Part shown: positions 41,145 to 43,716 of the stretch, in pieces
Layout: every line of letters begins with the position of its first letter
Numbering within the stretch: position 1 is the first letter of the stretch
Assembly: GCF_011806565.1 (NCBI RefSeq)
Contig: NZ_JAATOP010000010.1
Coordinates: 1 to 64,000, forward strand
From: Marivivens donghaensis
Lineage (GTDB): Bacteria > Pseudomonadota > Alphaproteobacteria > Rhodobacterales > Rhodobacteraceae
DNA length: 64,000 nucleotides
Direction of reading: 5' to 3'
Notes under the pieces: generated by a model
Databases searched by the model: none
Seen by the model: the letters and a program-made list of their open reading frames with translations, nothing else
What the model was told of the DNA's origin: nothing
Translations under genes and position numbers: made by a program

Positions 41145-41579
41145 ATGGAACGAACCGAAGAGGTGAGCTGGAACAACGTCAGCTACCGCACCATCCTGAC
41201 CAAAGAGGCAACGAACGGCGCGATGTCGATCGTGGACTCCACGACACCGGCAGGCGAAGGGCCGCCACGCCATGTTCACGCCGCCGAGGACGAAGTGTTC
41301 ATCGTCCTCACCGGAGAGATCGAGATCTGGGTCGAGGGCGACCTGCGCCGTTTGGGACCGGGCGAAAGCGTGTTCATCCCGCGCGGCAAAGAGCACACCT
41401 TCCGCGTCTGCTCCGACACGCCGTCACGCCATCTGGTCATCCTGACTCCCGGCGGTTTCGAGGGCTTTTTCTACGAGGCCGCAGATCGGGATCTGAGCAT
41501 TCCGATGGACATGCCCGCCATCATCGAGGCGGGCAGCCGCTTCAATCTGACATTCACCGGCCCACCGCTGGGCGCCTGA
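41145..41579 (+). CDS. Cupin-domain protein
   Basis: The 144-residue protein is a single cupin_2 domain: motif 1 RHVHAAEDEVFIVLTGEIEIW holds two His and a Glu ligand, and motif 2 PGESVFIPRGKEHTFR holds the last His. It resembles quercetin-dioxygenase-like cupins of unknown substrate. GGGGGG and a moderate ribosome site lie before the start. The next gene begins 17 bases later, so they form an operon, divergent from a NodD-type LysR gene. Confidence 0.85.
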   Translation: MERTEEVSWNNVSYRTILTKEATNGAMSIVDSTTPAGEGPPRHVHAAEDEVFIVLTGEIEIWVEGDLRRLGPGESVFIPRGKEHTFRVCSDTPSRHLVILTPGGFEGFFYEAADRDLSIPMDMPAIIEAGSRFNLTFTGPPLGA

Positions 41580-41596: not shown

Positions 41597-41968
41597 ATGA
41601 ACTCTGTATCACAACGGTTTTTCGCGTTCGGCGCACTTTGCGCGCTGATTGGTATGGCTTGGGGGATCGTGATGTCCGCCACGGGGGACCACAGCCTTTC
41701 GCCAGCCCACGGACATCTCAACCTCATCGGTTTTGTCGCTTCGTCGGTGTTTGGCGCGTACTACGCGCTCAGTCCCTCGGCTGCGGCGTCGAAACTGTCG
41801 AACGTCCATTTCTGGCTGGCGGTCCTATCGGTCATCGTCATCGTGCCGGGTATCGTGATGGCATTGACCGAGCAGGGCGAGACATTGGCAAAGGTCGGTT
41901 CGATCCTGACCATCCTGTCGATGCTGCTGTTCTTCGTGACAGTGCTGCGCAACCGAGTCGGCGGTTAA
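41597..41968 (+). CDS. Small four-helix membrane protein with HGHLNLIGF motif
   Basis: The 123-residue protein has four hydrophobic segments (about 5-27, 37-58, 69-90, 98-117). The AHGHLNLIGFV motif at the second helix recalls small relatives of heme-copper oxidase subunit I found in many proteobacteria. The length and single His pair make it too small for an oxidase, and its role is unknown. It follows the cupin gene by 17 bases in the same operon. Confidence 0.7.
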   Translation: MNSVSQRFFAFGALCALIGMAWGIVMSATGDHSLSPAHGHLNLIGFVASSVFGAYYALSPSAAASKLSNVHFWLAVLSVIVIVPGIVMALTEQGETLAKVGSILTILSMLLFFVTVLRNRVGG

Positions 41969-42064
41969 TAGGGTCAGGAATCCTCTAGGTTGCCAAGCCG
42001 CACCCAGCGCTTTACGCTCGGGTCATTGGTCAAGGATTTCACAACGGGAGGGCAAGAGCTGAAC

Positions 42065-42130
42065 ATGCGTATCATCCGCCGACTTCAGCATGGTCCCCGT
42101 GTTGCCCTGCAAATCTGTTTGCAGGGCTGA
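42065..42130 (+). CDS. 21-residue leader peptide upstream of ABC-F gene
   Basis: An ATG at 42065, preceded by GGGAGG and AAGAG, opens a 21-residue frame (MRIIRRLQHGPRVALQICLQ plus Gly) ending in TGA at 42128-42130. The last codons lie inside a perfect hairpin that is incompatible with a second hairpin downstream. Leader ORFs of this size commonly precede antibiotic-resistance ABC-F genes, where drug-stalled ribosomes change RNA folding. The clustered arginines early in the peptide could aid stalling. No homologue is known to me. Confidence 0.55.
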   Translation: MRIIRRLQHGPRVALQICLQG

Positions 42131-42157
42131 CCGACGATTTCCATCAAAGGTCTGCCC
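42105..42157 (+). promoter_or_regulatory. Mutually exclusive hairpins (putative attenuator) before the ABC-F gene
   Basis: Hairpin A is CCCTGCAAA (42105-42113) with TTTGCAGGG (42118-42126), a perfect 9-bp stem with a 4-base loop covering the end of the leader ORF. Hairpin B pairs GGGCTGACC (42124-42132) with GGTCTGCCC (42149-42157), eight pairs and one mismatch, and shares GGG with A. A ribosome stalled on the leader would block A and allow B. A smaller stem, GCCGC-ATT-GCGGC (42161-42173), followed by AAAATTT, lies just before the gene. Confidence 0.55.
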
Positions 42158-42198
42158 AGAGCCGCATTGCGGCAAAATTTCTGTGACCCGAGATATCT

Positions 42199-43716
42199 AT
42201 GACCATTATCAATACCAATGCGCTGGGCGTGACCCTTGGCGACCCGCTTTTCTCTGACCTCAACCTGACTGTTTCCAAATCCGACCGCATCGGCCTCGTC
42301 GCCGCGAACGGGCGGGGGAAGACGACGCTGCTCGATTGCCTCGCGGGTGAGCACGATCCGACGACGGGCGACATCACCTATGCCCGCGGTCTCCGTGTCG
42401 GCTATGTGGAGCAATACGTGCCTGACGAGGCGCTGGGCGTAACCCTCTATGACTGGGTACTGGCCGCGCTGCCGCCCGAGCAGGTGGACTTCGAAAGCTG
42501 GCGCGTAGACGTGGTGCTGGACGAGCTGTCGGTGCCCGACGAGATGCAGCACAAGACGCTCGGCGAACTCAGCGGCGGCTGGCAGCGGACGGCGATGCTG
42601 GCGTCGGTCTGGGTGAAGGAACCCGATGTCCTGCTGCTGGACGAGCCTACCAACCACCTCGACCTCGAACGTGTGGCGTTGCTGGAGGCGTGGCTGGGCA
42701 ACCTGCCGCGTGAGACACCGGTGATCCTGACTTCCCACGACCGCGCGTTTCTGGACGCCACGACGAACCGCACCCTGTTCCTGCGGGCCGAAAATTCGCG
42801 CGTGTTCAACCTGCCGTTCTCGGCTGCCCGCGCTGCACTCGACGAGTCCGACGCGGCGGACGAACGCCAGCTGGCGAACGACATGAACAAGGCCAAGCAG
42901 CTGCGCCGTCAGGCGGCCAAGCTCAAGAATGTCGGCATCAACTCCGGCTCCGACCTGCTGCTGACCAAGACCAAGCAACTGACCGAACGCGCCGACAAGC
43001 TCGAGGCCGCCGCTCGTCCCGTCCACCGCGAACGGTCGGCGGGTGACATCAAACTGGTGAACAGCGGCACCCATTCCAAGGCGCTCGTCACGCTGGAGGA
43101 TATCGAGGTTCAAACGCCCGATGGCCGCGTTCTCTATAAGACCGGCCAAAAGTGGATTTCGCGCGGCGACCGTGTGGTTCTGCTGGGCGCCAATGGCACG
43201 GGCAAAACCCAGCTCGTCAGCCTGATCCAGAAGGCACTGATGGGCGAAGATGACACCGTGAAGTGCGCTGCCTCGATCGTACCTGCGTTTTCCGATCAGC
43301 ACCTGAGTATGCTTAGCGCCGCGGACACGCCAATCAGCGCCGTCACCAGCAACTTCAGCATCGGCGACGAACGCGCGCGGGCGTCACTGGCGGGCGCTGG
43401 CATCAATTTCCAGATGCAGAGCACGAACATCGACGCGCTGTCCGGCGGGCAGAAAGCGCGCCTCGCCATGCTGCTCCTGCGGCTGAGGAACCCGAACTTC
43501 TACCTCCTCGACGAGCCGACAAATCACCTCGACATCGAAGGGCAGGAAGCACTTGAGGCCGAGCTGATCGACAACGACGTCTCCTGCCTGCTCGTCAGCC
43601 ACGACCGCACATTCCTGCGCAACGTCGGCAACCGCTTCTGGTGGATCAAGGGCAAGCGGCTGGTCGAAATCGACGATCCCGAGGAATTTCTGAGGGGGGA
43701 GATGGCCCGAGGTTAG
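42199..43716 (+). CDS. ABC-F family ATPase, possible ribosome-protection factor
   Basis: The 505-residue soluble protein has two ABC domains and no membrane segment. Domain 1 has a slightly altered P-loop (AANGRGKTTLL), signature LGELSGGWQR and Walker B LLLDEPTNHLDLE. Domain 2 has GANGTGKTQLV, signature LSGGQKARLAML and DEPTNHLDIEGQ. A charged linker of about 80 residues (AADERQLANDMNKAKQLRRQ onward) corresponds to the P-site tRNA interaction motif. ABC-F proteins act on ribosomes, either in translation or in antibiotic protection. The leader ORF and hairpins upstream favour an inducible resistance type. Confidence 0.88.
   Translation: MTIINTNALGVTLGDPLFSDLNLTVSKSDRIGLVAANGRGKTTLLDCLAGEHDPTTGDITYARGLRVGYVEQYVPDEALGVTLYDWVLAALPPEQVDFESWRVDVVLDELSVPDEMQHKTLGELSGGWQRTAMLASVWVKEPDVLLLDEPTNHLDLERVALLEAWLGNLPRETPVILTSHDRAFLDATTNRTLFLRAENSRVFNLPFSAARAALDESDAADERQLANDMNKAKQLRRQAAKLKNVGINSGSDLLLTKTKQLTERADKLEAAARPVHRERSAGDIKLVNSGTHSKALVTLEDIEVQTPDGRVLYKTGQKWISRGDRVVLLGANGTGKTQLVSLIQKALMGEDDTVKCAASIVPAFSDQHLSMLSAADTPISAVTSNFSIGDERARASLAGAGINFQMQSTNIDALSGGQKARLAMLLLRLRNPNFYLLDEPTNHLDIEGQEALEAELIDNDVSCLLVSHDRTFLRNVGNRFWWIKGKRLVEIDDPEEFLRGEMARG

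Follow-up and report, generated by a model that had tools for sequence, protein, structure and literature searches.

Upstream of an ABC-F ATPase gene in Marivivens donghaensis we find a short leader ORF, followed by four RNA arms that can pair in two competing ways. We suggest that this element is a leader-peptide-controlled translational attenuator with the four-arm layout of the ermC attenuator, and we put the probability of this reading at roughly 0.8. The region was studied in a stretch of 64,000 nucleotides, here called the window, and in related genomes.

In the proposed mechanism, arm 1 contains the Ala-Leu codons at the end of the conserved leader core and arm 4 the ribosome-binding region of the ABC-F gene, with arms 2 and 3 between them. 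When the leader is read normally, arms 1:2 and 3:4 would pair and the ABC-F start site would be closed. A ribosome paused at the Gly-Pro codons would cover the first four to seven bases of arm 1; arm 2 would then capture arm 3, arm 4 would be released and the ABC-F protein would be made. A ribosome-targeting compound, or some other block of translation relieved by the ABC-F protein, would be the most likely cause of the pause. We infer the pause, its place, its cause and its effect on expression. An earlier note on this DNA had already proposed a stalled-leader switch before the ABC-F gene; that architecture is well supported and widespread, and an antibiotic, one of the two inducers that it suggested beside translation stress, remains a candidate.

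The well-conserved leader is found before ABC-F genes in Alphaproteobacteria, including Rhizobiaceae and the Roseobacter group, and the spacing between its Gly-Pro core and the switch is fixed. It offers a testable handle on an uncharacterised group of ABC-F proteins, as the cause of the Gly-Pro pause is likely to be the job of the protein. If a drug does cause the pause, drug-dependent stalling would be seen here in a peptide context that is new.

Leader ORF and RNA arms in the window

Table 1. Features of the leader region and the ABC-F gene (positions in the window).
Feature	Position	Strand	Basis or remark
Candidate promoter, TTGCCA-N17-TACGCT	41990..42018	+	RNA start would be near 42025
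Ribosome-binding site of the leader, GGGAGGG	42046..42052	+	sequence
Leader ORF, encoding MRIIRRLQHGPRVALQICLQG, then stop	42065..42130	+	21 codons, ATG...TGA; upstream of the ABC-F gene
Conserved Gly-Pro codons, proposed pause site	42092..42097	+	Gly 92/94, Pro 92/94 loci
Arm 1, left arm of P1, begins at Ala codon GCC	42104..42113	+	GCC in 94/94 loci
Arm 2, P1 right arm (42118-42127) plus P2 left arm (42124-42132)	42118..42132	+	P1 covariation, swap test
Arm 3, right arm of P2 or partner of arm 4	42149..42157	+	swap tests of P2 and P4 across relatives
P3, small hairpin GCCGC AUU GCGGC between arms 3 and 4	42161..42173	+	predicted fold
Arm 4, UCUG-U-GACC and GAG, ABC-F ribosome-binding region	42180..42192	+	complementarity in relatives; own versus swapped or shuffled
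ABC-F ATPase gene, 505 aa, proposed regulated gene	42199..43716	+	best family NF000355, 288 bits

The 21-residue leader ORF and its ribosome-binding site are confirmed as the earlier note described them, see Table 1. An ermC-type attenuator calls for a leader ORF that has a ribosome-binding site to itself and precedes the regulated gene; as judged from sequence, this is the case in the window. Related leaders, read by eye, are preceded by purine-rich GGAGG-type sites. In 10 of 26 loci with RRLQ-type leaders the top match by our own scoring is a TTGCCA box at 17-nt spacing that ends 45-49 nt ahead of the leader start region. A stricter scan found no promoter, so the site in Table 1 is a candidate only.

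Of the 26 distinct RRLQ-type loci, 25 share an in-frame CTG that lies six bases ahead of the leader ATG position (42059-42061 in the window). In locus L071 the in-frame CTG sits at -9 instead, and L078 has no ATG at the leader start position. From these sequences, the leader may start at CUG. Two small genes lie just upstream on the same strand, both named from a look at their sequences: a cupin-like protein gene (41145-41579), for which the family scan gave weak matches, and a membrane-protein-like gene (41597-41968), for which the family scan gave no match.

The first hairpin, P1, is a perfect stem as claimed earlier. It has 10 rather than 9 bp, 42104-42113 pairing with 42118-42127 around the loop 42114-42117, and the leader stop codon (42128-42130) follows directly after its right arm instead of lying inside the hairpin. 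The second hairpin, P2, was described correctly, with 42124-42132 facing 42149-42157 in eight pairs and one U-U. The two hairpins exclude each other, as had been noted; their overlap is the four nucleotides GGGC and not only the GGG at 42124-42126. P1 and P2 compete because both use this GGGC.

Two further structures had been overlooked. P3 pairs 42161-42165 with 42169-42173, and GC-rich hairpin-like stretches are seen by eye at its place in many relatives. Arm 3, taken as 42149-42160, is also able to pair with the ABC-F ribosome-binding region at 42180-42188. This pairing, P4, joins 42149-42152 to 42185-42188 and 42157-42160 to 42180-42183 when read by eye, and its GGUC:GACC part is also recovered when complementarity is compared in relatives. 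The fold of 176 nt of the window is more stable than chance would give, with a z-score of -2.5 and 2 of 200 shuffled sequences as good, and the layout is met again across the class. The lowest-energy fold contains P1 and a short GACC:GGUC stem, not P4. No Rfam family matched the element above the gathering score, either in the window or in nine relatives; only tRNAs elsewhere were matched.

It could also be that transcription stops early at P3 or at a structure close to it, except when a leader ribosome stalls. Leader-controlled ABC-F genes are documented in Firmicutes, where vmlR of Bacillus and msrD of Streptococcus have, as here, a leader ORF before an ABC-F gene and alternative hairpins, which in those two genes are controlled by stalling (PMC9226507, PMC10314930). 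Both act at least partly through an intrinsic terminator; in vmlR the ribosome-binding site is, in addition, partly masked by a hairpin. Leader-controlled ABC-F genes are documented in Streptomyces as well (PMC12421871). In the window, P3 is followed by AAAATTT, which would fit such an ending. However, no terminator-like site was found between 41900 and 42300, most relatives inspected by eye have no clear T-run after P3, and the pairing of arm 3 with the start region would have no role. Transcription attenuation is therefore an unlikely explanation, and translational control is favoured since no terminator-like site was found in the window.

Distribution and conservation of the leader

Relatives of the ABC-F protein are present in 45 of 394 genomes of the family (E 1e-100 or better), 14 of 385 genomes of the class and 12 of 61 genomes of the order of genome G724 (both E 1e-110 or better), and 21 of 374 genomes of the phylum (E 1e-80 or better), all 21 in this class. 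These sets overlap, and together they contain 83 genomes with a match, the window's own included. After removal of two genomes in which the gene start lies at a contig end (G166 and G818) and one that was not fetched (G028), 80 genomes with a readable upstream region are counted, again with the window's own.

The leader and P1 are found together in 72 of these 80 alphaproteobacterial genomes. The remaining eight are six genomes of one genus, whose ABC-F proteins are 64-65% identical to that of locus L054, and two distant relatives, with ABC-F proteins 42% and 38% identical to that of the window. In the genus of L053 and L095-L100, where the ABC-F gene has no leader, some copies show by eye a different upstream inverted repeat, CTACCTTT...AAAGGTAG or near.

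Searching genome contigs with the ABC-F protein yielded 20 loci, and the leader and P1 are present in all 16 that have a full-length match. Left out of the counting were three fragments (L026-L028) and L023, a rearranged or truncated copy in which the first 82 residues are missing and whose locus shows no leader. The named loci most like the window belong to the Roseobacter group. An ABC-F relative is also found in 12 plasmid records, and all eight that were fetched have a related leader. These are loci L044-L051, in which Rhizobiaceae, Ketogulonicigenium and Gemmobacter carry the leader and the ABC-F gene on large plasmids, some of them predicted to be conjugative. In L011, L042 and L090 the leader is present and the ABC-F gene is apparently interrupted.

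Further loci were collected by a pattern search that required Gly or Gln followed by Pro or Ser. It found 78 loci, and those it missed were read by eye, adding L072, L076 and L081. Of the 15 matches of an earlier sequence-pattern search, 13 are this leader element; the other two, L037 and L041, were rejected as both lie inside other reading frames.

A covariance model built from the leader core and P1 was searched in the 385 genomes of the class and gave 30 matches. The 13 with at least 39.9 bits all lie beside this ABC-F gene: 12 before ABC-F relatives, in 12 of the 14 ABC-F genomes of the class, and one in genome G664, before an ABC-F gene cut by the contig end. The next match has 32.4 bits. 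The 17 matches at or below this score were set aside as chance, five of them (L146, L131, L132, L133 and L147) after inspection of the sequence; the stricter filters of this search lose some weak matches.

Over 94 loci (L049, L114, L063 and L160 included) the leader core reads [RL]-[QT]-[RH]-G-P-[VR]-x-A-[LP]. The start and the N-terminal half of the leader vary between groups and the core is near-invariant, with Gly in 92, Pro in 92 and Ala in all 94 loci. Four loci have an altered Gly-Pro and keep P1, namely Ser-Pro in L076, Gln-Pro in L062, Gly-Ser in L057 and Gly-Thr in L081. All four Gly codons and all four Pro codons occur. The Ala codon, the first codon of P1, is GCC in all 94 loci and the next codon is CTG in 81. 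From this codon use, Gly-Pro is kept as peptide and Ala-Leu also as RNA.

The Ala codon begins 12 nt after the start of the Gly codon, and the distance from the Gly codon to P1 is identical in all 94 loci, which partly reflects the selection rule, since the hairpin was sought at this distance. The rule was not applied in reading the first 16 loci, those on plasmids and one class set. The leader stop of relatives is found inside P1, just behind it or a few codons further; in 18 of the 94 loci it comes six codons after Gly and falls within the left arm of P1. Among RRLQ-type leaders (18 distinct sequences of 28, 10 codons), the variable columns at codon positions 1, 2 and 3 number 2, 1 and 9, as expected for a translated ORF.

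Covariation of the arms and predicted opening of the start site

As judged from the sequences of relatives, P1, P2 and P4 co-vary. For P1 this was examined in an alignment of 68 of the 73 loci of the swap test described below, made without reference to structure. In this alignment 96.0% of the P1 cells are paired and six of the ten pairs contain changes on both sides. The cells with both-side changes number 50, compared with 11.9 +- 2.8 in shuffled alignments (0 of 500 as high) and 2 to 18 when the stem is slid. By a weaker measure, the number of further pair types, P1 reaches 17 against 14.2 +- 1.3, a value attained by 21 of 500 shuffles. When upstream regions of orthologues are compared, as the earlier note had suggested, a conserved leader and compensatory changes in P1 are thus found across Alphaproteobacteria.

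In the swap test the arms of each locus were paired with its own partners and with those of other loci (n = 73, 2000 permutations; L049, L114 and L063 dropped for an uncertain ABC-F start, repeats removed). The own partners are better for P1 (-17.9 against -15.6 kcal/mol), P2 (-19.0 against -17.7 kcal/mol) and P4 (-12.9 against -9.4 kcal/mol), each with p = 0.0005, although these values overstate independence and are not strict probabilities, because the loci are related. For P4, shuffled start regions give -8.75 +- 0.30 kcal/mol. Arm 3 was located through its pairing with arm 2, so the choice of arm 3 in the P4 test is independent of the start region. Although favoured on average, the own partner rarely ranks first; the median ranks are 0.49 (P1, ties counted), 0.29 (P2) and 0.19 (P4). 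The ermC-type alternation of 1:2 plus 3:4 against 2:3, with arm 4 at the ribosome-binding site, is found across the family; P4 is short in the window and long in divergent loci, reaching 11 bp in L090.

The co-varying pairings also bear on the idea that the leader encodes a small protein acting in trans, with hairpins that are incidental or serve RNA stability. There is a precedent in peTrpL of Sinorhizobium, a leader peptide whose described role is not confined to the transcript that encodes it (PMC7298713). However, while the N-terminal half of the leader varies between groups, the spacing of Gly-Pro and P1 is constant and P1, P2 and P4 co-vary. We therefore regard a trans-acting peptide as very improbable.

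The folding computation supports an easier opening of the ABC-F start site in the paused state. Counted from the start of its P-site codon, a ribosome reaches forward by about 16 bases, so that the first four bases of arm 1 are covered when Gly is in the P site and the first seven when Pro is. Over 90 loci (L049, L114, L063 and L160 dropped), the mean cost of opening the start region is 8.64 kcal/mol in free RNA and 7.07 kcal/mol with a ribosome paused at Pro; pausing makes the region more open in 71 of the loci but not in the other 19. Shuffling arm 2 in the paused state brings the mean over the 90 loci to 8.55 kcal/mol (cost raised in 69), and shuffling arm 1 in free RNA brings it to 7.44 kcal/mol (lowered in 68). 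A ribosome at the leader stop gives 8.78 kcal/mol, compared with 7.16 kcal/mol for the paused one (n = 76, the 78 loci of the pattern search minus repeats). In the window itself the computed switch is weak, as free and paused states differ by only 0.1 kcal/mol. The mechanism rests on the family and not on the window copy, because folding of the window gives no clear switch.

Possible causes of the proposed pause and the ABC-F protein

By analogy, the known relatives of the proposed mechanism would be the translational attenuators of erm genes and the toiL-topAI leader, with vmlR and msrD set apart by their terminators. Compared with erm, the gene regulated here is an ABC-F ATPase, the hosts are Alphaproteobacteria and the leader has a Gly-Pro core, which to our knowledge is not a feature of Erm leaders. 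Like the element studied here, ermC-type systems have a short leader ORF, and in them a stalled ribosome switches hairpins to allow downstream translation (PMC11264731). The toiL-topAI leader of Escherichia coli is an uORF of a Gram-negative bacterium at which ribosome stalling is proposed to unmask a ribosome-binding site; it regulates a toxin-antitoxin operon and not an ABC-F gene (PMC12121999). The uORFC-6-1 motif before hflX likewise combines an uORF with co-varying RNA before a ribosome-rescue gene, but the gene is another one and the leader is of Arg-Leu-Arg type, and the words ABC transporter and ATPase are absent from the main text (PMC8632094). A literature search, with most subscription journals and all bioRxiv preprints outside its scope, found no recognisable work on this leader element.

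The same switch could work with another cause of the pause. A physiological pause at Gly-Pro may be an alternative to an antibiotic inducer: the leader would pause unaided and the ABC-F protein would resolve the pause, giving a drug-free feedback gauge of ABC-F activity. The Arg/His-Gly-Pro-x core resembles the RGPx and RAPx motifs of SecM/RAPP-like arrest peptides (ApdP, ApcA), which stall at the peptidyl transferase centre (PMC10987492, PMC12992588, PMC10951233), and added MsrD suppresses the erythromycin induction of msrD via its leader (PMC10314930). However, the Arg that RAPP stalling requires, two residues before the P-site residue, where a change to Ala abolishes stalling (PMC10951233), is Arg in only 40 of 94 loci here. 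It is His in 32 loci, as in the window, and another residue in 22. After Pro there is Val in 53 of 94 and Arg in 29, not Pro. Also, the named SecM/RAPP-like cases precede protein-localization genes, while here a very short peptide without a conserved Arg precedes an ABC-F gene. A physiological pause is possible, yet we hold it only tentatively. It can be speculated, with similar reserve, that the whole forms a class-wide alphaproteobacterial family of RNA and peptide in which a drug-free Gly-Pro pause, resolved by the ABC-F protein of the same locus, gauges ribosome-rescue capacity.

The Arg-x-Arg motif is a macrolide-related leader motif. It was rejected as the general sensor because the RRLQ-HGPR group is without it.

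For the attenuator proposed here, an antibiotic may be the inducer, although the leader core is Gly-Pro and the ABC-F protein does not reach the cut-off of any resistance ABC-F model listed in the best 25 of 185 families. Its best family is NF000355, a general model of ribosomal-protection-like ABC-F proteins, at 288 bits and below the cut-off of 380. Among solved sequences, 8buu_9 (named ExpZ, E 1.7e-67), which we take to be VmlR2, is the nearest by profile. In the profile alignment the protein has 25 residues fewer than 8buu_9 in the inter-domain helical region, and the extended helical tip of VmlR2 is not present. The predicted structure (mean pLDDT 49.5) was too poor for a fold search. Patchy presence within genera has been used to predict resistance ABC-F proteins (PMC6723617); the patchy presence here, in 45 of 394 genomes of the family, is only suggestive of one.

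Other ABC-F paralogues are found in the same genome. One matches Uup models best, one PRK10636, presumably YheS, and one is unclassified. The unclassified paralogue (L005:1459-3042, minus strand) has 527 aa and scores 331 bits with NF000355 (cut-off 380), and in its genome the RNA model matched only the site in the window.
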